From contig NZ_FQVT01000009.1 of NCBI RefSeq assembly GCF_900129445.1, positions 1 through 64,000 on the forward strand: 64,000 nucleotides of DNA. The letters are read 5' to 3'. A model generated the notes under the pieces. That model did no database searches and was not told where the DNA came from. It saw only the letters and a list, made by a program, of their open reading frames with translations. Shown one piece after another: positions 219-9,312 of this stretch (its first letter is position 1; every line of letters starts with the position of its first letter). The stretch comes from Salegentibacter echinorum (GTDB lineage: Bacteria; Bacteroidota; Bacteroidia; Flavobacteriales; Flavobacteriaceae). Position numbers and translations under genes: made by a program.

Positions 219-836
219 CTAATGTCTTTTTTCTAAAACTTCAGCTATATCTTTTAACGAATAGCCCTTCGCTTTGAGCAAAATGAGGTAATGAAATAAC
301 AAATCTGCACTCTCGTTTAGAAAAAGCTCTTCATTATTATCTTTCGCTTCAATAACAGTTTCTACAGCCTCCTCACCTACTTTTTGGGCAATTTTATTCA
401 TTCCGGCGTCAAAAAGTGAAACCACATACGAGTTCTTATCCTCTCGCAATTCTGGCTCAACTTCGCTCATTCGCTTACGCTTGTCGATAATTCCTTCCAA
501 CTGCGATAAAAACCCAAAATTAGGCTTATTTTCTTCTCCCCAACAGGTATCTGTTCCTTTGTGACAGGTAGGTCCTTCTGGATTCACACTAACTAATAAA
601 GTATCATTATCGCAATCATTTTTAATAGCTATCAAATGAAGAAAATTACCACTTTCCTCTCCTTTGGTCCACAACCTATTTTTAGATCTGCTAAAAAAAG
701 TAACTTTCTTGGTTTCGTTGGTTTTAAAAAAAGCTTCTTCATTCATATACCCCAACATTAGGACATTTTTTGTAGAAGCATCCTGAATTATCGCTGGAAC
801 TAATCCGTCGCTGTTTTTATTAAAATCTATGTTCAT
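219..836 (-). CDS. hisIE: Bifunctional phosphoribosyl-AMP cyclohydrolase / phosphoribosyl-ATP pyrophosphatase
   Basis: Catalyses steps 2 and 3 of histidine synthesis: PR-ATP to PR-AMP, then ring opening to ProFAR. The HisI domain covers residues 1-105, with the acidic metal motif DCDND at 74-78 and cysteines at 75, 91 and 98 (CHKGTDTCWG at 91-100) that match the zinc and magnesium sites of the family. The HisE domain covers about 110-205, with EEAVE at 155-159 and ESAD at 175-178. The length of 205 residues is normal for the fusion. It is the last gene of the his operon; the 136-base gap to hisF is repeat sequence. Confidence 0.97.
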   Translation of the reverse strand: MNIDFNKNSDGLVPAIIQDASTKNVLMLGYMNEEAFFKTNETKKVTFFSRSKNRLWTKGEESGNFLHLIAIKNDCDNDTLLVSVNPEGPTCHKGTDTCWGEENKPNFGFLSQLEGIIDKRKRMSEVEPELREDKNSYVVSLFDAGMNKIAQKVGEEAVETVIEAKDNNEELFLNESADLLFHYLILLKAKGYSLKDIAEVLEKRH

Positions 837-879
837 ATCGATATTTTTAATGAATAAGAATAGAGAAGAAAGAGCAAAG

Positions 880-962
880 AATAGAGATACAATATTTCAC
901 AGCTCTTTTTTCTATCCTCTATTTTCTCTTATCTTTGGTCTATTTTCTATCCTCTTTTTTCT
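880..962. repeat. AT-rich spacer repeat (AGAGGATAGAAAATAGA-type)
   Basis: The hisF-hisIE gap holds two near copies of a purine-rich unit, which read on the minus strand as AGAGGATAGAAAATAGA and AGAAAATAGAGGATAGA. A short plus-strand frame over this stretch has low-complexity Phe/Leu composition and is not a gene. It is one of several unrelated repeats in the his spacers. Confidence 0.5.
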
Positions 963-972
963 TTTTTATAAC

Positions 973-1728
973 TTACAACCTAACTTCCACACCATTTTCA
1001 CGAAGTTCTTCCTTTAAATCTTTAATTTCTATTTCTTTAAAGTGAAAAACACTGGCAGCCAAAGCGGCATCGGCTTTTCCTATTTTAAAAGCATCGGTAA
1101 AATGCTGCATATTCCCTGCTCCGCCAGAAGCAATTATAGGAATTTTTAATGCTGAAGATAAAACCGCCAAAGCTTCATTGGCAAACCCCGCTTTTGTCCC
1201 GTCATTATTCATCGAAGTAAATAGGATTTCCCCCGCACCTCGCTCTTCTACTTCTTTTGCCCATTGAAACAAATTAAGGTCGGTTGGAACTTTTCCACCA
1301 ACCAGGTGTACCATCCATTCGCCATTAATTTGTTTTGCATCTATGGCCACGGTGATACACTGACTGCCAAACTTAGCGGATAGTTGATTAATTAAATCTG
1401 GGTTCTTTACTGCTGAAGAGTTTATTGAAACTTTATCGGCGCCGTTTTTAAGCAAAATATCCACATCTTCCACAGAAGAGATTCCCCCGCCCACGGTAAA
1501 GGGTATATTTACTTTTTCAGCTACCCTTCGCACTAAATTGGCCAGGGTTTTTCGTTTTTCTTCCGTAGCAGAAATATCGAGAAAGACCAATTCATCAGCA
1601 CCAGATGTTGCGTAAATTTTAGCCAACTCTACAGGATCACCAGCATCCCTAAGGTTTACAAAGTTCACTCCTTTTACGGTTCTACCATCTTTAATATCCA
1701 GGCAGGGAATAATTCTTTTTGTTAGCAT
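973..1728 (-). CDS. hisF: Imidazole glycerol phosphate synthase cyclase subunit
   Basis: A TIM-barrel subunit that uses ammonia from HisH to turn PRFAR into imidazole glycerol phosphate and AICAR. Catalytic Asp11 lies in [10 protein letters not shown] and Asp130 in TVAIDAKQ; the phosphate-binding loops FTVGGGIS and IIASGGAG are both present. At 251 residues it is full length. It follows hisA after a 55-base gap that contains TTAGAAG-type heptamers. Confidence 0.98.
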
Positions 1729-1783
1729 TTTTTCAATTTAAAGTATAAAGTTAGAAATACGAAATTAGAAGTTTGCGCTATAT

Positions 1784-2545
1784 CTATTCAGATTTGATTA
1801 TATATCTCTCCAATTCTTTTAGCTGAATACGGCCTTCGTAAATCGCTTTACCAATAATAGTTCCTTCGCAACCAATTTCGGCCAGTTTGGGTAGCTCTTT
1901 AAAAGTGGAAATTCCACCGGAAGCGATTAGATGTAAAGATTGCTGCTCCTTCTCGACTGCGCTCGAAGTGACAGCAGTTTCCTCTAAAATTCGCCGATAA
2001 AGTTCAAAAGAAGGTCCCTCTAACATTCCGTCCTTAGAAATATCGGTGCAAATCACATATTTCACGCCTTCTTGCTGATATTTCTGAATAAATGGGATTA
2101 GTTCTTTTTTACTTTCTTCCTGCCAACCGCTTATCGCAATTTTTTCATTGTTGGCATCGGCACCCAAAATTATTTTTTCTGAACCATATTTTTGTAACCA
2201 ATTTTTAAAGGTTTCGGGATCTTTTATAGCGATACTCCCACCCGTAATTTGATTCGCGCCAGATTCAAATGCGATTTTCAAATCTTCATCAGACTTTAGT
2301 CCTCCTCCAAAATCTATCTTCAAGCTAGTTTTAGAAGCGATTTCTTCTAAAATCCTGTAATTCACAATATGTTTTGATTTTGCACCATCCAAATCTACCA
2401 AATGCAAATATTCAATTCCGTGGGCTTCGAAGTTTTTCGCCACTTCCAAGGGATTTTCATTATAAATTTTTTTGGTATTATAATCGCCTTTGGAAAGCCT
2501 TACACACTTTCCTTCAATAATATCTATCGCCGGTATAATTCTCAT
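1784..2545 (-). CDS. hisA: ProFAR isomerase, with an in-frame repeat insertion
   Basis: Isomerises the aminoaldose ProFAR to the aminoketose PRFAR. The (beta/alpha)8 barrel has catalytic Asp8 (IPAIDII) and Asp130 (ILGADAN), with phosphate loops IDFGGGL and IASGGIS. Between helix ELYRRILEE and strand LHLIASGG there are about 14 extra residues (190-203, [14 protein letters not shown]). Their DNA is a known-looking dispersed palindrome with core TCGACTGCGCTCGA. The frame is intact and all catalytic residues are kept, so the enzyme is probably active; the insertion lies at the loop before beta-strand 8. Confidence 0.97.
1937..1978 (-). repeat. Palindromic repeat inserted inside hisA
   Basis: A 42-base stretch contains CTTCTCGACTGCGCTCGAAG, with TCGA...TCGA symmetry, flanked by TGCTG and CAGCA arms. 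It encodes hisA residues 190-203, which have no counterpart in the usual HisA alignment. The sequence resembles intergenic repeats common in Bacteroidota genomes (recalled knowledge). A multiple-of-three length keeps the gene open. Confidence 0.7.
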
Positions 2546-2547
2546 TT

Positions 2548-2577
2548 GAAGTTAGAAGTTAGAGGTTAGAGGTTAAG
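2548..2577. repeat. TTAGAGG/TTAGAAG heptamer run
   Basis: Tandem heptamers (GTTAGAAGTTAGAGGTTAGA) fill the gap between hisA and the four-helix-bundle gene and overlap the latter's stop. Related runs occur at about 1748-1772, 11626-11665, 15028-15045 and 25513-25540, all in spacers next to gene ends. Confidence 0.7.
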
Positions 2578-2938
2578 AACCTTTATTCTTTTGATTTCGT
2601 CTTACGGTATTAATGGACGCTACTATAATAGCCAATATTTCCTCGGCTTCCTTATGTAACTTTTGAGCAATCTTAATTTCCTGATCTTTCATTATTTCCA
2701 TAAATAATTCAAGAAAATACATGCTTTCATCCGCCTCCTCTTCCACAATTTTAAGTTTATTGATAAAATCAGCGGTCGATTTCGCTCGTTGCGAAGCTCT
2801 ATAATTGGCACCAACAGAGCTGGAGCAACGTATAAGTTGATTAGCGTATGCATTGTATTCTCGCGAATATGGAATTCTTCTACAGAAAAACCAACACTCT
2901 AAAGCAAATTTTTTAGTTCTAATCTTCATATCTTGCAT
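2573..2938 (-). CDS. Four-helix-bundle protein (23S rRNA intervening-sequence family)
   Basis: The 121-residue all-helical protein has the features of the S23 / IVS-protein family: an N-terminal KIRTKKFALECWFFCRRIP, the central SSSVGANYRASQRAKS motif, and a conserved acidic EEADES segment. Family members occur inside 23S rRNA intervening sequences, near retroelements (as Avd-like proteins) and as stand-alone genes; a nucleic-acid-binding role is likely but the cellular function is unknown. It sits between hisH and hisA in the same orientation, flanked by heptamer repeats, and has no known link to histidine synthesis. It looks like an acquired insertion that is co-transcribed. Confidence 0.9.
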   Translation of the reverse strand: MQDMKIRTKKFALECWFFCRRIPYSREYNAYANQLIRCSSSVGANYRASQRAKSTADFINKLKIVEEEADESMYFLELFMEIMKDQEIKIAQKLHKEAEEILAIIVASINTVRRNQKNKGS

Positions 2939-2964
2939 AACTTCTAACTTTTAATTTTGTATTT

Positions 2965-3606
2965 CTAACTTTCCAAAAAATTCTTTAAAATCTTCTCGCC
3001 TGCATCACTGCTTTTTTCGGGATGAAATTGTACACCATAAAAATTATCTTTTTGAATAGCCGAGGTATATTCCACCCCATAATTCGTGGAAGCTATGGTT
3101 TCTTCGCATTCTTTTACATAAAAGCTATGTACCAAATAAACGAATTCCTGTTCTGAAATCCCCTCAAATAACTTAGATTTTAAATCGAAAATTCGGTTCC
3201 AACCAATTTGTGGCACTTTTAAGCCGTTATTAAATTTTACCACCTCTGCCTTAAAAATCCCCAATCCTTTCGTATCGCCTTCTTCACAGTAATCGCACAT
3301 TAATTGCATTCCCAGGCATATCCCCAAAACCGGTTGTTTTAAAGTAGGAATCACCTTATCCAGCCCCGTCTTTTTCAGCATTTTCATGGCGCTACTCGCC
3401 TCACCTACACCTGGAAAAATAACCTTATCTGCCAACCTGATTTCTTCGGCATCGCTGCTTAAAATAGCATTATATCCTAACCGCTTTGCTGCAAATTTTA
3501 AACTCTGAATATTCCCAGCGCCGTAATCTATAATTACTAAATCAACGCCCCCTCTAACTCCCCCGAAGGGGGAGGACGTTTCAATCTCTTTTTCTGAAAT
3601 TCTCAA
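2965..3606 (-). CDS. hisH: Imidazole glycerol phosphate synthase glutaminase subunit
   Basis: A class I glutamine amidotransferase that feeds ammonia to HisF. Cys97 (GICLGMQ), His195 and Glu197 (VQFHPEKS) form the triad. The canonical N-terminus VIIDYGAGNIQS begins only at residue 24. The preceding 23 residues include SSPFGGVRGG, the translation of a dispersed GC-rich repeat. No ATG, GTG or TTG lies between the repeat and the VIIDYG core, so translation apparently starts at the ATG at 3606 and reads through the repeat. This suggests an insertion just after the original start codon. Confidence 0.96.
   Translation of the reverse strand: MRISEKEIETSSPFGGVRGGVDLVIIDYGAGNIQSLKFAAKRLGYNAILSSDAEEIRLADKVIFPGVGEASSAMKMLKKTGLDKVIPTLKQPVLGICLGMQLMCDYCEEGDTKGLGIFKAEVVKFNNGLKVPQIGWNRIFDLKSKLFEGISEQEFVYLVHSFYVKECEETIASTNYGVEYTSAIQKDNFYGVQFHPEKSSDAGEKILKNFLES
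3544..3580 (-). repeat. GC-rich dispersed repeat R2 inside the hisH 5' end
   Basis: The plus strand reads CTAACTCCCCCGAAGGGGGA here, a perfect short hairpin in an otherwise AT-rich operon. It encodes hisH residues 11-21. A related copy in inverted orientation lies 50 bases away at 3630-3660. Confidence 0.75.
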
Positions 3607-3629
3607 ATTATATCAAATTAATAGTTTTT

Positions 3630-3660
3630 TATTCCCCCTTCGGGGGCTAGGGGGTTTACA
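3630..3660 (+). repeat. Dispersed repeat R2, inverted copy at the hisB stop
   Basis: CCCCCTTCGGGGGCTAGGGG is the inverted relative of the copy in the hisH 5' end. It abuts the hisB stop codon (3656-3658), and the repeat edge overlaps that codon. The two copies could pair in the mRNA and enclose the hisH start. Confidence 0.7.
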
Positions 3661-4795
3661 ACATTCCTTTTGTAGAAGGAAGGATCATTTTTTCTGCATC
3701 TCGTTTTACGGCCATTTTAATAGCTTTGGCAAAAGCTTTAAAAATAGCTTCAATTTTATGATGTTCGTTTTGGCCTTCTGCTTTTACATTTAAATTGGCT
3801 TTAGCACCATCGGTAAAAGATTTAAAAAAGTGGTAGAACATTTCAGTAGGCATTTTACCAACCATTTCCCGTTTAAAATCAGCTTCCCATACAATCCAGT
3901 TTCTTCCGCCAAAATCTATCGCTACCTGTGCCAGGCAGTCGTCCATAGGTAGGCAAAATCCATATCGTTCTATGCCCAGTTTATCGCCCAGGGCTTTGCT
4001 AAAAAGCTCTCCCAGGGCAATCGCCGTATCTTCTATGGTATGATGCTCATCTACTTCCAAATCGCCTTTAACCTGAATTTCTAGATCCATTTGTCCATGT
4101 CGCGCGATTTGATCCAGCATATGGTCAAAAAAGGATATTCCGGTACTTATTTTAGAATTACCGGTTCCATCTAAATTAAGTTTTATAAAAATATCGGTCT
4201 CGTTGGTCTTTCTACTAATTTCTGCCACGCGGTCTTCCAGTTTTAGAAACTCGTAAATAGCTTTCCAACTTCCGGTTTTTAAAACGATGCTTTCTTTGAC
4301 TATGGCCATTTCATTTTGTACTTCCCCGGTTGCCAAATCCTCGTGCGTATCGATAAAAATTCCTTTTCCACCAAAATTATATGCAAACTCAACATCTGTA
4401 AGTCGGTCGCCAATCATAAAGGAGTGCTCTAAATCATACTCCTCACTATTCAAATACTTCTCCTCCAGCAACCCGGTGTTTGGCTTTCTGGTATGGGCAT
4501 TATCTTTTGCAAAAGTTCTATCCATTAATACTTCACTAAATTCTACACCTTCATTTTTAAAAGTTTTAAGAATAAAATTTTGAATTGGCCAAAAATCGAC
4601 TTCCGGGTAAGCTTCAGTGCCCAAACCATCCTGATTGGTAACCATCACTAATTCAAAATCCAGTTCGGAAGCAATTTTTTTGAGGTAATATAAAGCTTCT
4701 GGATAAAATTCTAACTTCTCTATGCTATCCACCTGGTAATCTTCCGGCTCGTGAATTAAAGTTCCGTCCCGGTCTATAAATAATACTTTTTTCAT
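3656..4795 (-). CDS. hisB: Bifunctional histidinol-phosphatase / imidazole glycerol phosphate dehydratase
   Basis: Carries out the dehydration and the later dephosphorylation steps of the pathway. The N-terminal HAD phosphatase starts at [12 protein letters not shown] (catalytic Asp8 and Asp10). An upstream ATG at 4816 would add seven residues not typical of the family, so 4795 is chosen. The zinc loop of the Escherichia coli enzyme (CxH...CxC) is replaced by [14 protein letters not shown] (about 92-105) with no cysteine. The C-terminal dehydratase, from about 190, has FFDHML and the manganese motif DEHHTIEDT at 249-257. The ending LPSTKGML is normal. Confidence 0.97.
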
Positions 4796-4876
4796 AACTT
4801 TATTTATGCTCTGCACATATTTCAGAGCCTTTTATTTAGTAATGTTTCTCAATATTTTAGAAAAAGCGTTTCGAAA

Positions 4877-5923
4877 TTACTCAAGGCTCTTCAGCGCTTT
4901 AATTAATTTCTCAATCTCTTCTTTAGTTCCAACTGTAAAACGCAGGGTATTTTCACAAAGTGCCTGCGTAGTCCTATTTCTAATCACGATGCCTTTTTCT
5001 AATAATTGCTGATATCTTTTGTTGGCATCATCAACTTTTACCAATATAAAATTAGCATTAGAAGGATAAGATTTTTTCACAGTACGCACTTCAAGTAAAG
5101 CTTTATATAAAACATCCCTTTGATCAACTAGATCAGCTATTTCCGCATTTACTTCATCCATATTCGACACCCTATTTAGAGCGCGTTCCTGGGTGAGTGC
5201 ATTTACATTATATGGCGGTTTAATTTTGTTGAGCACCTGTATGATTTCCTGGGCAGCAAAACAAAGTCCCAACCTAATTCCTGCCATTCCATAAGCCTTG
5301 GATAAGGTTTGCGTAATGACCAAATTTGGAAAATCATTAAGCTTACTAATCCAACTTTCTTCCGAAGAAAAATCAATATAAGCCTCGTCGATAATTATGA
5401 GTCCGTTGAAATTTTCTAATAGTTCCAGTATTTTTTCTTCAGCAAAAGCATTACCGGTAGGATTATTGGGAGAGCACAAAAATATCATTTTCGTGTTTGC
5501 ATCTATCGTTCGTAGAATCTCCTGTAAATTAGGCTGGAAATCTTTGGATAACTGAACCTCTCTATTCTCAATATTATTGATATCAGCCAGTACTTTATAC
5601 ATTCCATAAGTGGGCGGCAGCGTAATCACATTGTCCTGTCCCGGTTCACAAAAAGCACGATAGAGTAGATCCAGGACTTCATCACTGCCATTGCCCAAGA
5701 GAATACTTTCTGGTCCTATCGAATTCATTTTAGCCAACTCAGACTTTAGACTGCGTTGCTGTGGATCTGGATAGCGATTTACGTCGGTTTGAAAGGGGTT
5801 TTCATTGGCGTCTAAAAACACCATTTCAGAGCCTGTAGCTTTAAATTCATCCCGGGCAGAGGAATAAGGTTGCAACTTCGCTACGTTGGGCCTTACCAGG
5901 TTATTTATATTGAAATTTATCAT
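4877..5923 (-). CDS. hisC: Histidinol-phosphate aminotransferase
   Basis: A fold-type I PLP enzyme that transfers the amino group from glutamate to imidazole acetol phosphate. The Schiff-base lysine is Lys209 in TLSKAYGMAG. The PLP-contacting motifs SPNNPTG (about 151-157) and IIDEAYIDF (about 178-186) and the C-terminal RFTVG arginine are present. At 348 residues it is full length. It lies between hisD (125-base repeat-containing gap) and hisB (about 80-base gap). Confidence 0.97.
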   Translation of the reverse strand: MINFNINNLVRPNVAKLQPYSSARDEFKATGSEMVFLDANENPFQTDVNRYPDPQQRSLKSELAKMNSIGPESILLGNGSDEVLDLLYRAFCEPGQDNVITLPPTYGMYKVLADINNIENREVQLSKDFQPNLQEILRTIDANTKMIFLCSPNNPTGNAFAEEKILELLENFNGLIIIDEAYIDFSSEESWISKLNDFPNLVITQTLSKAYGMAGIRLGLCFAAQEIIQVLNKIKPPYNVNALTQERALNRVSNMDEVNAEIADLVDQRDVLYKALLEVRTVKKSYPSNANFILVKVDDANKRYQQLLEKGIVIRNRTTQALCENTLRFTVGTKEEIEKLIKALKSLE

Positions 5924-5990
5924 TTTATAATATTAAATCAGATTAAAAAGTTATTGTGATTTCCGAAACCACCAATTGCAAGTCAACCAC

Positions 5991-6024
5991 AGATTGCCGC
6001 GCTCCTTTGTCGTTCCCAATGACG
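5991..6024 (+). repeat. Dispersed repeat R1, copy 2 (hisD-hisC gap)
   Basis: AGATTGCCGCGCTCCTTTGT followed by CGTTCCCAATGACG matches the copies at 84-119 and 25723-25757. It fills the centre of the 125-base hisD-hisC spacer and is therefore transcribed within the operon. Confidence 0.75.
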
Positions 6025-6048
6025 AGGTATATTGTCACTTTTAAACAT

Positions 6049-7332
6049 TTATTCCAATTCCTTTAAACGTAAACTAACAGCATTCTTATGAGCGTGTAAA
6101 CCTTCAGCTTCAGCCATAATTTCTATTGCCGGTCCAATTTTTTTAATACCTTCTTTGGAAATCTTTTGAAAAGTCATGCTTTTTAAAAAGCTATCCAGGT
6201 TCACTCCGCTATATTGTTTGGCATAGGCATTAGTAGGTAAGGTGTGATTGGTACCTGAAGCATAATCCCCTGCACTCTCTGGAGTAAAGCTCCCTATAAA
6301 TACAGAGCCGGCATTTTGTATTCCTTCCACATAAAAATCTTCGTTCTTTGCAGCAACGATAAAGTGCTCCGGACCATACTCATTAATAAGTTTAAGCGCT
6401 GCTTTGTCATCTTGAAGATACACAAGTCTTGAGTTCTCTATTGACTTATTGGCTATATCTTTGCGTGGAGTTACTTCAAGTTGAGCTTCAACTTCTTTTT
6501 CTACTTTTTTCAGTAGATCTTTAGCGGTAGTTACAAAAATAACCTGGCTATCGGTGCCGTGTTCGGCCTGGCTCAAAAGGTCTGAAGCTATAAACGAAGC
6601 ATTCGCGGTTTCATCTGCAAAAACCAATAATTCTGAAGGACCTGCCGGCATATCTATGGCCACATTGTACTTTGTAGCCAGTTGTTTGGCGACGGTTACA
6701 AATTGATTTCCAGGGCCAAATATTTTATAAACCTTAGGCACGGTTTGGGTTCCAAAAGTCATTGCGGCAATAGCTTGAATCCCTCCTATTTTAAAGATTT
6801 TTGTCACGCCACAAAGCGCTGCGGTGTATAAAATGGCGGGATTTATCTGGCCATTTTTATCAGGAGGGGTACAAAGTACAATCTCCTTACAACCGGCAAT
6901 TGACGCCGGAGCTGCCAACATTAAAATCGTGGAAAACAAGGGGGCACTTCCCCCGGGAATATAAAGTCCCACTTTTTGAATAGGGCGCTTCTCCTGCCAA
7001 CACAAAACGCCGGGTGAAGTTTCTATTTCAATTTTATTGGTTTTTTGTGCCGCATGAAACTTTTCTATGTTCTTTTTCGCAAGCTTTATCGCTTGTTTTA
7101 ATTCTGAAGAAACCTTTGCTTCCCCGTTTTTAATTTCTTCGGAAGAAACCCGCGTATTTTCCAGGTTAACGCCATCAAATAGCTCTGTATATTTGGCGAC
7201 TGCTTCATTTCCTTTATTCTGAACTTCTAAAAAAACCTGATTTACAGTTTCTTCAATATCTGCCACAGTTTGGGTTGGACGCTTTAAAATATCGGCCCAT
7301 TCAGATTCTTTGGGGTTAACAAACTTTTTCAT
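6049..7332 (-). CDS. hisD: Histidinol dehydrogenase
   Basis: A zinc enzyme that oxidises histidinol to histidine in two NAD-dependent steps. Visible motifs are the zinc ligands in SQAEHGTDSQ, the catalytic pair in GPEHFIV, the aspartate in AGDYASGTNHTLPT, and the C-terminal zinc histidine in GLHAHKNAV. The nucleotide-binding loop YIPGGSAP is intact. The length of 427 residues is standard. Its start codon abuts the end of hisG at 7332, so the two are probably translationally coupled. Confidence 0.98.
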   Translation of the reverse strand: MKKFVNPKESEWADILKRPTQTVADIEETVNQVFLEVQNKGNEAVAKYTELFDGVNLENTRVSSEEIKNGEAKVSSELKQAIKLAKKNIEKFHAAQKTNKIEIETSPGVLCWQEKRPIQKVGLYIPGGSAPLFSTILMLAAPASIAGCKEIVLCTPPDKNGQINPAILYTAALCGVTKIFKIGGIQAIAAMTFGTQTVPKVYKIFGPGNQFVTVAKQLATKYNVAIDMPAGPSELLVFADETANASFIASDLLSQAEHGTDSQVIFVTTAKDLLKKVEKEVEAQLEVTPRKDIANKSIENSRLVYLQDDKAALKLINEYGPEHFIVAAKNEDFYVEGIQNAGSVFIGSFTPESAGDYASGTNHTLPTNAYAKQYSGVNLDSFLKSMTFQKISKEGIKKIGPAIEIMAEAEGLHAHKNAVSLRLKELE

Positions 7333-8195
7333 TACAATACCATTTTTTCGATTGGAGCCACCAAAATCCCCTCAGCTCCCTGTTCTTTCAATTCGTCTAT
7401 TACTTCCCAAAACCGCTCTTCATTTATCACTGTATGAATAGAGCTCCAACCATCTTTTGCTAAAGGTAATACTGTGGGGCTGCGCATTCCCGGCAATAAT
7501 TCAATTATATCATACAATTTTTCATTTGGGGCATTAAGCAGAATATATTTTGAAGTCCGAGCATTTAACACAGATTTTAAACGAAACTGTAACTTTTCCA
7601 AAATGGCTTTTCTCTCTTCTGAAATTTTTGGGGAAATTGCTAACACTGCTTCACTTTTTAGCATTACCTCTACTTCTTTTAAGCCATTTTTAAAAAGGGT
7701 GCTACCACTAGAAACTATATCACAAATCCCATCGGCCAGGCCAATATTAGGCGCAATTTCTACAGAACCATTAATTATATGAAGATCTGCCGAAATTCCC
7801 TTGCGTTCTAAAAATTCATTCACAGTATTTGGGTAGGAAGTTGCGATTTTCTTTCCGTCTAAATCCTCAATACTATTGTATGCTAAAGACTTAGGCACTG
7901 CCAGGGAAACACGACATTTAGAGAAACCTAATTTCTCACCTTTAACAATATCTTTACCCTTTTCAATAAGTACATTTTCACCTATAATAGCAACATCTAC
8001 CACACCATCTCTTAAATACTGAGGAATGTCACCATTTCTTAAATACATCACTTCCAGGGGAAAGTTTCGCGAAGAAGCTTTTAGTTGTTCTTTTCCATTA
8101 TCGATAGAAATTCCGGCATCTTTTAAGATCTTTAAAGAATCTTCGTTTAGGCGTCCCGATTTCTGAATAGCAATCCTTAGTTTTTCCTGACTCAT
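7332..8195 (-). CDS. hisG: ATP phosphoribosyltransferase, long form
   Basis: The first, committed step of histidine synthesis: ATP plus PRPP to PR-ATP. The 287-residue length and C-terminal ACT-like domain (about 215-287, ending GILVAPIEKMVL) mark the long HisG form, which is histidine-inhibited and needs no HisZ. The PRPP-binding segment is ICDIVSSGSTLFKNGL. It is the first structural gene after the leader peptide and attenuator, 60 bases downstream of the attenuator T-run. Confidence 0.97.
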   Translation of the reverse strand: MSQEKLRIAIQKSGRLNEDSLKILKDAGISIDNGKEQLKASSRNFPLEVMYLRNGDIPQYLRDGVVDVAIIGENVLIEKGKDIVKGEKLGFSKCRVSLAVPKSLAYNSIEDLDGKKIATSYPNTVNEFLERKGISADLHIINGSVEIAPNIGLADGICDIVSSGSTLFKNGLKEVEVMLKSEAVLAISPKISEERKAILEKLQFRLKSVLNARTSKYILLNAPNEKLYDIIELLPGMRSPTVLPLAKDGWSSIHTVINEERFWEVIDELKEQGAEGILVAPIEKMVL

Positions 8196-8257
8196 ATTTT
8201 AATTTTTCTTATACCTCACAGTCCCGAATAGCTATCAAGACCGTAGGGTTTCTTTTT

Positions 8258-8295
8258 AATAAACAAAAAACCCGTTTGAATAGCTCAAACGGGTT
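8258..8295 (-). terminator. his attenuator (intrinsic terminator)
   Basis: On the minus strand AACCCGTTTGA pairs perfectly over 11 bp with TCAAACGGGTT around a 5-base loop, followed by TTTTTTGTTTATT. It lies between the His-rich leader ORF and hisG, so it can stop transcription before the structural genes. Its 5' arm overlaps the antiterminator partner at 8283-8291. Confidence 0.9.
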
Positions 8296-8343
8296 CTAAA
8301 TATGTTATAAAATTACAACACACCAAATTCACCTCGCCTGAGC
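8283..8343 (-). promoter_or_regulatory. Candidate his antiterminator pairing
   Basis: GCTCAGGCG at 8343-8335, inside the last codons of the leader ORF, can pair over 9 bp (two G-U) with CGTTTGAGC at 8291-8283. The latter covers much of the 5' arm of the terminator. A ribosome stalled on the His codons (8370-8356) would leave this segment free and allow antitermination; one reaching the stop at 8329 would cover it and let the terminator fold. The pairing is seen in the sequence; the mechanism is inferred from classical attenuation. Confidence 0.75.
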
Positions 8344-8388
8344 GCAGTAGTAAATATGATGGTGATGATGTAATTGAATATTCTCCAT
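8329..8388 (-). CDS. hisL: Histidine operon leader peptide
   Basis: The 19-codon ORF reads MENIQLHHHHHIYYCAQAR, with five consecutive histidine codons at positions 7-11. It begins 8 bases after a -7 promoter box and ends 34 bases before the attenuator hairpin. The composition and position identify a stalling leader peptide rather than a functional protein. It is too short for ordinary gene finders. No Shine-Dalgarno is possible if transcription starts where the promoter predicts. Confidence 0.92.
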   Translation of the reverse strand: MENIQLHHHHHIYYCAQAR

Positions 8389-8396
8389 TGTGATTA

Positions 8397-8425
8397 CAAA
8401 GCTAATATTAAATTTTAAATCGCAA
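8397..8425 (-). promoter_or_regulatory. his operon promoter (Bacteroidota type)
   Basis: The minus strand carries TTG (8425-8423), an 18-base spacer and TAGCTTTG (8404-8397), matching the TTG / TAnnTTTG consensus of the primary Bacteroidota sigma factor. The expected start is about 4-5 bases past the box, leaving a 5' leader of about 4 bases before the leader-peptide ATG. Confidence 0.75.
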
Positions 8426-8493
8426 AATTTCTTATGAAATTTTTATCGCTAAAATATGAGAAGCTCATACGACTTAAACTAACGATGTAAATA

Positions 8494-9312
8494 TTAATTG
8501 TTCCCACCAAGGATAAGCGGCATTCCTCCTTCTCCAGACCCTATAATCACAGTTTTAGCATTGTTGGATTTGGCTAGTTCTAACGTAGCCTGAATTCCTT
8601 TTTCTTTTAAAACTTTTTCGGTTAAGGATTCACTTAAAATTCGGTTAGCCCGCGCTTTACCTTCCGCATCAATCCTTTGGCGCTCTGCTTCCTGTTCGGC
8701 CTTGGTTAAACGGAATTCATATTCCAAAGATTCCTGCTCCTGGCGCAATTTACGCTCGATTGCCTCTTTTATGGTAGGCGGAAGTGAAACATCCCTTACC
8801 AAAACTTCATTTACCTGTACATATTGATCTTTTAATAAAACCTGGGTTTCTTCCAGTATTTCATTTTGAATAGCCTCCCGCTTACTGGCATATAATTGCT
8901 CGGGATTATACCGGCCAACCACGGCCCTTGCTGCCGATCTTACCGCCGGCTGCAATAAACGTTGAATATAAGCATCTCCTTTTTCCTGGTGAAGCTTCCC
9001 AAGGTTTTGGTAAGAAGGCTGGAACCAGGTAGAAGCATCTATCCTAATTTCAAGTCCGTTAGAACTTAAAACCTGCATTTTTTCTTCCAGGGATTGTTGT
9101 CTTACTTCGTAAACAAAAACATTATTCCAGGGAGCCACCAGGTGAAAACCTTCGCCTAATGGTGGTTCTTCTGTCACAACCCCGCCACCAAAGGTTTTAT
9201 AAAGCACTCCGGCCTCTCCAGAGTCTATTGTAACCGTAGATTTAGCAACAAAAATAATAAGCACAACGATCCCTATAATTATAGGTATTCCTAATTTGGG
9301 TAATCTTTCCAT
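8494..9312 (-). CDS. SPFH/prohibitin-like membrane protein
   Basis: The 272-residue protein has one N-terminal membrane helix (GIPIIIGIVVLIIFVA, about 8-23), then an SPFH/Band 7 domain (about 28-210) and an alanine- and glutamate-rich coiled coil (REAIQNEILEETQ; RLTKAEQEAERQR). It ends in a glycine-rich tail. Prohibitin-type proteins form large ring assemblies in the membrane and often shield or recruit proteases; the exact role here is unknown. It lies 14 bases after the VWA protein gene and is likely co-transcribed with it. Confidence 0.9.
   Translation of the reverse strand: MERLPKLGIPIIIGIVVLIIFVAKSTVTIDSGEAGVLYKTFGGGVVTEEPPLGEGFHLVAPWNNVFVYEVRQQSLEEKMQVLSSNGLEIRIDASTWFQPSYQNLGKLHQEKGDAYIQRLLQPAVRSAARAVVGRYNPEQLYASKREAIQNEILEETQVLLKDQYVQVNEVLVRDVSLPPTIKEAIERKLRQEQESLEYEFRLTKAEQEAERQRIDAEGKARANRILSESLTEKVLKEKGIQATLELAKSNNAKTVIIGSGEGGMPLILGGNN

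Follow-up and report, generated by a model that had tools for sequence, protein, structure and literature searches.

A probable ribosome-mediated attenuator upstream of hisG in Salegentibacter echinorum, with a predicted near-leaderless leader peptide and related elements across the class Bacteroidia

The region upstream of hisG in Salegentibacter echinorum very probably carries a his-operon transcription attenuator of the classical, ribosome-mediated type, a reading to which we assign a probability of about 0.92. In the 64,000-nt stretch of DNA that was analysed (hereafter, the window), the presumed operon hisG-D-C-B-H-(four-helix-bundle ORF)-A-F-IE occupies positions 219-8195, as delineated by NCBIfam matches and with co-transcription presumed. 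Its first gene, hisG (7332..8195, minus strand), was assigned by its ORF and a match to TIGR00070 (HisG), and the four-helix-bundle protein gene (TIGR02436; 2573-2938, minus strand) lies between hisH and hisA. The ten best relatives of its HisG all come from Salegentibacter, at 90-93% identity, and a genome placed in this genus and S. sediminis share one and the same leader (L082 and L009). Upstream of hisG, direct reading of the minus strand reveals a leader ORF of 19 codons followed by TGA (8388-8329), which encodes the peptide MENIQLHHHHHIYYCAQAR, is kept in relatives, and contains five consecutive His codons (8356..8370) that we propose as the stall site.

The leader ORF is followed, 31 nt past its stop codon, by an intrinsic terminator (8265..8297, minus strand), supported by folding and by a permutation test, which has an 11-bp core (8295-8285 / 8279-8269) and a T-run at 8270-8265. 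The 5' arm of this terminator, segment 3 (8283..8294, minus strand), is a shared arm that can pair either with segment 4 of the terminator or with segment 2 (8331..8343, minus strand), the 5' arm of the antiterminator, which comprises the AQAR codons at the end of the leader ORF and the first base of its stop codon. The assignment of segment 3 rests on pairing and a permutation test, and that of segment 2 on pairing and on conservation at synonymous sites. The alternative pairing consists of 9 bp between GCTCAGGCG (8343-8335) and CGTTTGAGC (8291-8283), lengthened by GGT/ACC over one bulged A to 12 bp with an energy of -18.9 kcal/mol, such that the leader end GCTCAGGCGaGGT (8343-8331) pairs with the terminator arm ACCCGTTTGAGC (8294-8283). 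An earlier note, made from the sequence alone, had described the ORF with its His run, the 11-bp hairpin with its T-run and the 9-bp alternative pairing, and had read them as a classical his attenuator; each of these parts was recovered here, and the sequence analysis favours the same reading, with the mechanism itself as a prediction. The interval given in that note, 8258-8388, encloses the leader and the terminator and leaves out the predicted promoter at 8427-8397.

The leader RNA as a whole folds more stably than expected (z of -4.22 against 200 dinucleotide shuffles, one of which was equally good). Within the window sequence, masking the RNA covered by a stalled ribosome and extending the transcript only to the terminator loop led to formation of the antiterminator (-27.0), and masking the stop-codon region led to formation of the terminator alone. 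When the stall mask was combined with the complete terminator, the minimum-energy fold was the terminator (-28.6), so that antitermination would have to rest on the order of folding, that is, on kinetics; in classical attenuators the decision is likewise held to be kinetic. Without a ribosome, and with the RNA extending only to the loop, the minimum-energy fold was the antiterminator (-28.5). We also considered that the terminator might belong to a shared terminator cassette, and rejected this because its exact pattern occurs only once in the organism's own genome.

Taken with their conservation, spacing and covariation, which are described below, these parts suggest the following model, in which the transcription start, translation, stalling, termination and the response to histidine are all predictions. 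Transcription would start about 4 nt before the leader ATG, and a ribosome would load near the 5' end of the RNA without a Shine-Dalgarno site. With ample charged His-tRNA, the ribosome would reach the stop codon and cover segment 2, leaving segment 3 to pair with segment 4, and transcription would stop at the T-run. With charged His-tRNA scarce, the ribosome would stall on the His codons and leave segment 2 free to pair with segment 3 before segment 4 is synthesized, and hisG would be transcribed.

The spacing of the element is compatible with such a switch. Segment 2 of the window begins 12 nt past the last His codon, and, given the usual size of the ribosome footprint, a ribosome on that codon is predicted to leave segment 2 exposed, whereas a ribosome at the stop codon would cover it. 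Segment 2 was searched for solely downstream of the His run, and its distance from the last His codon has a median of 12 nt in 117 distinct leaders of the Flavobacteriaceae (middle half 6-12) and of 13 nt in 45 leaders from outside the family (middle half 11-16). Measured from the first His codon, the distance has medians of 24 and 28 nt, and segment 2 ends at a median of -2 nt (family) or +4 nt (outside) relative to the end of the stop codon. In a quarter of the family leaders the gap behind the last His codon is 6 nt or less, and in these the relevant stall would need to occur at earlier His codons. Distinct leaders carry between 3 and 6 His codons in the family and between 3 and 7 outside it.

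Folding and permutation further point to an additional hairpin, 1:1' (8306..8380, minus strand), in which the leader, from its start to the last His codon, is paired with the stop codon and with the spacer that follows it, placing segment 2 near the loop. Eight or more bases paired in this way occur in 157/161 distinct leaders, as compared with a shuffled mean of 57.3, and a stricter count, requiring at least 6 His-codon bases paired with the spacer, is satisfied in 99/161 leaders versus 23.9 after shuffling. The mean z of the 1:1' fold is -2.79 in the 117 family leaders and -2.34 in 44 leaders from outside, and matched arms outperform permuted ones, with 0/5000 permutations being as good. Hairpin 1:1' may occupy segment 2, and so hold it in protection, after the ribosome has departed; as the antiterminator was the minimum-energy fold even without a ribosome, we advance this protecting role as a proposal. 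A self-hairpin of the post-stop spacer was weak in the family (mean z -1.39) and unsupported outside it (mean z 0.00), and was dropped.

To assess conservation we collected 199 regions upstream of hisG, comprising the window, 109 loci from searches of relatives and 89 further loci, with some strains present in both collections and retained in the 199-locus counts. Of this total, 139 loci were assigned to the Flavobacteriaceae by record title or kinship (one of them, L076, is titled only as Flavobacteriales): they are a subset of the loci that exist in the family and stem from the best 80 relatives, from the best 30 plus 26 chosen of 166 matching genomes, and from 3 genomes of the class sample. 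The remaining 60 loci represent one per outside-family genome with a hisG match, the class sample consisting of 139 genomes, of which 64 matched and 4 belonged to the family. A search for ORFs of 6-60 codons that have 3 or more His within 7 residues was positive at 189/199 loci; the reverse strand gave 13 positives and mononucleotide shuffles gave 7.0 on average. With at least 4 His, 134 of the 199 loci were positive, versus 0 on the reverse strand and 0.4 in shuffled sequences. At one of the 189 loci (L190) the detected ORF appears spurious by eye, the leader visible there carrying HTH. Among the ten loci missed, four (L071, L125, L178, L191) show by eye a leader with two adjacent His codons and a terminator, and another (L162) has a weaker HH ORF ahead of a hairpin; nothing clear was seen by eye at L117, L131, L138, L171 and L173.

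A leader together with a terminator at or below -9 kcal/mol was detected in 132/139 family loci and 45/60 outside loci. This automatic criterion misses terminators in L044, L049 and L098 that are seen with a simple hairpin finder, by which leader and hairpin were found together in 110/111 loci (the window entering twice, once under the handle L081); the simple finder chose a shifted hairpin in L045, L059 and L107. By the automatic criterion, 15/60 outside loci lack a leader or a terminator, and one of the 45 outside positives (L161) looks spurious and was excluded from the permutation test described below.

The prevalence of the terminator bears on a variant model in which the leader peptide acts mainly through Rho or through translation of hisG, and not through an intrinsic terminator. 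Four loci from other families of the same class (L144, L145, L153, L168), which carry His-rich ORFs before hisG and no clear T-run terminator, lend this model some plausibility, but the window and 132 of the 139 family loci carry a terminator at or below -9 kcal/mol, which argues against it, and we regard it as very unlikely for the element described here. Three of these four leaders end in HHSS, with an inverted repeat of the CCTC..GAGG type at the stop codon, and it is possible that the four have a different, Rho-dependent or translational, output.

Within the Flavobacteriaceae, segment 3 is nearly invariant (CCCGTTTGAG), and hence little covariation can be seen there. Outside the family the paired arms differ, for example CGGTAAGTCG with AGGCTTACC, ATAGGTGAG with CGCCTAT, and CGCGGGTGGC with CCCACCCGC. 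Across 42 dereplicated outside loci, representing 28 core sequences, the mean energy of the 2:3 pairing was -13.6 kcal/mol for matched arms and -10.6 kcal/mol for permuted ones, and 0/5000 permutations reached the observed sum, a count that is not an exact probability because the loci are related to one another. In 37/42 cases the pairing with a locus's own arm was better than the average over arms whose core differed. Tested one by one against mononucleotide-shuffled segment 2, only 23/43 outside loci reached p ≤ 0.05.

Within the family, the codons making up segment 2 hardly vary at their synonymous sites, GCG being used in 98/117 and AGG in 82/117 distinct leaders. An AQAR tail ends 45/117 distinct family leaders, and QAR or LAR tails end many more. 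Such recurrence, together with the ability of His-rich peptides to bind metals, could suggest that the ORF encodes a small functional peptide and that the hairpin is a constitutive partial terminator. However, conservation within the family resides at synonymous sites, so that the recurrent tail is most simply explained by a constraint on the RNA and not on the peptide, and in other families the tail and the terminator arm change in concert; we therefore hold a functional peptide to be extremely improbable. The earlier note had said that a His run or a pairing not conserved in relatives would speak against an attenuator, and what we find is a retained His run, pairing that covaries between families and near-fixed synonymous sites.

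Beyond the class, 19 of 54 matching genomes were inspected. Three of these (L214-L216) combine a His-rich leader with a terminator, and perfectly matching segments are visible by eye in at least L214 and L216 (GCGCCGG/CCGGCGC and AGCCGGG/CCCGGCT, respectively). Two more, from another class of the same phylum (L217, L218), have very His-rich ORFs of 25-27 codons before hisG, for which a terminator was not found; one is doubtful (L219), and 13/19 showed no such leader or terminator.

The position of the predicted promoter (8397..8427, minus strand) suggests how translation of the leader might begin. It consists of TTTTG (8427-8423), an 18-nt spacer and a Bacteroidota -7 box, TAGCTTTG (8404-8397), which ends 8 nt upstream of the leader ATG. 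In Flavobacterium psychrophilum the -7 box was placed at -12 to -5 (PMC9723704), a position that here would put the transcription start at about 8392 and leave a 5' UTR of 4 nt (8389..8392, minus strand). The motif TA..TTT[GA] lies 5-10 nt before the ATG in 95/121 distinct family upstream regions, mostly at 7-9 nt, as compared with 4.0 expected from mononucleotide shuffling, and the strict form TAnnTTTG is present in 62/121. Outside the family, a box occurs at 5-10 nt in 7/45 upstream regions (0.7 expected) and others are spread to distances of up to 32 nt; the relaxed TA..TTT[GA] box is absent from 13/121 family and 7/45 outside upstream regions. None of four Shine-Dalgarno-like words was found in the last 18 nt before the ATG in any of the 166 upstream regions. 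The ATG-initiated leader of the window has an A at -3, as do 70/121 distinct family upstream regions, and in Flavobacterium johnsoniae translation is reported to start without Shine-Dalgarno sites, aided by an A at -3 (PMC6847099).

Judged by the position of the box, translation of the leader peptide probably begins within a few nucleotides of the transcript's 5' end, in a near-leaderless manner and without a Shine-Dalgarno site. This predicted start near the 5' end had escaped the earlier note, which remarked that initiation in this phylum depends little on Shine-Dalgarno sites. The median 5' UTR reported for F. psychrophilum is 24 nt, with leaderless mRNAs making up 5.5% (PMC9723704), and about 3.7% of 5' UTRs in Bacteroides thetaiotaomicron are under 10 nt (PMC7366714), so that a conserved UTR of 3-5 nt would be unusual. 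We lean, by a narrow margin over even odds, towards an old, class-wide his attenuator of the Bacteroidota whose leader peptide is nearly leaderless in most of the Flavobacteriaceae examined. If so, ribosome loading would be needed as the 5' end emerges from RNA polymerase, without a Shine-Dalgarno site or a normal 5' UTR, and the element would report on start-site finding and on transcription-translation coupling in the Bacteroidota. Classical attenuation requires a ribosome close behind RNA polymerase, and the class-wide covariation opens such coupling to test in a phylum that lacks Shine-Dalgarno sites.

Other amino-acid biosynthesis loci of the same genome were surveyed for comparable arrangements. 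Directly upstream of pheA (L201 1327-1404, contig C16), a leader-like ORF, MNSLINWNAFYFFYFYFWNRNGNAM, is followed by a strong terminator, a possible Phe/Tyr attenuator; upstream of a trpE-like gene (L203 1248-1304, contig C38), a leader-like ORF, MKNCIANNWWWKNYVNTS, is likewise followed by a terminator, a possible Trp attenuator. A simple test of segment 2:3 pairing did not support an antiterminator at either locus (p = 0.16 for pheA and p = 0.98 for trpE). At ilvD (L202) the sole candidate ORF falls within the gene itself and was discarded, and two homoserine dehydrogenase loci yielded no leader candidate, the stretch for one of them (L205) starting inside the gene, with the upstream region outside it.

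The combination of a terminator and an alternative pairing would, taken alone, suit any transcriptional riboswitch, and we considered that the RNA itself might sense tRNA-His or histidine as a T-box or riboswitch, with the small ORF present by chance. Yet a scan of the whole window against Rfam at the gathering score gave no match, and the 22 sub-threshold matches at the locus include no T-box and no riboswitch. Moreover, the ORF, the His run and the distance to segment 2 are retained although the sequences differ, and termination is predicted to yield a transcript of only about 128 nt, near whose predicted 5' end the ORF starts. We judge this reading to be highly unlikely. In a relaxed scan of positions 8150-8520, the His_leader family (RF00514) scored 31.9 bits, below its cut-off of 49; PyrR, anti-hemB, Thr_leader and others, all below their own cut-offs, were taken as chance matches driven by the terminator and set aside. 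Across 99 genomes of the class, RF00514 exceeded its cut-off in none and gave weaker matches in 16, and in those genomes with both a weaker match and a listed hisG match, the weaker match was located elsewhere (under stricter search filters). The sequences collected here could also seed an RNA family that is missed by the present His_leader model.

The attenuator that we propose resembles the his attenuator of Salmonella and E. coli in having a leader peptide with a run of His codons and mutually exclusive terminator and antiterminator structures before hisG. It differs from that system (RF00514) in lacking a Shine-Dalgarno site, in its predicted 5' UTR of 4 nt, and in a nested hairpin between the His-codon region and the post-stop spacer, in place of the A:B, C:D, E:F chain of hairpins in the Salmonella and E. 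coli his leader. This type of switch has long been known, and it is the spread and the almost leader-free start of a his attenuator that have been little described for the Bacteroidota. In 2010, leader-peptide systems had, to the knowledge of the authors of one study, been demonstrated solely in Proteobacteria and Actinobacteria, with the exception of the ermC leader (PMC2965389). In 2021, a transcriptome of F. psychrophilum gave strong clues that amino-acid operons are preceded by leader-peptide attenuators, and pointed out a 5' element of hisG that is conserved in other Flavobacteriaceae and has no Rfam entry (PMC9723704). That element shares with the present one the gene, the family and the lack of an Rfam match, and the two are likely to be identical, a comparison made by description, as for hisG the passages concerned present neither a sequence nor pairing nor covariation. 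The earlier note's extension of attenuation to this phylum is supported by sequence, and in view of that report the attenuator is not a first there. Beyond PMC9723704, no description of the element was recognised in our search of openly available papers; new here are the anatomy of the element, its covariation, its class-wide spread, the extra hairpin and the near-leaderless position of the promoter. In a different phylum, the his attenuators described for Firmicutes similarly combine leader peptides of three to five successive His codons with a terminator and an antiterminator, a likeness of description (PMC9413887). Leader peptides that are themselves leaderless are already known, as in the trpL attenuator of the alphaproteobacterium Sinorhizobium meliloti (PMC7298713), which has its leader ORF at or beside the 5' end of the transcript, as we propose for hisG, and differs in responding to Trp and in that its 5' end is reported at the ATG, whereas the 5' end described here is predicted.
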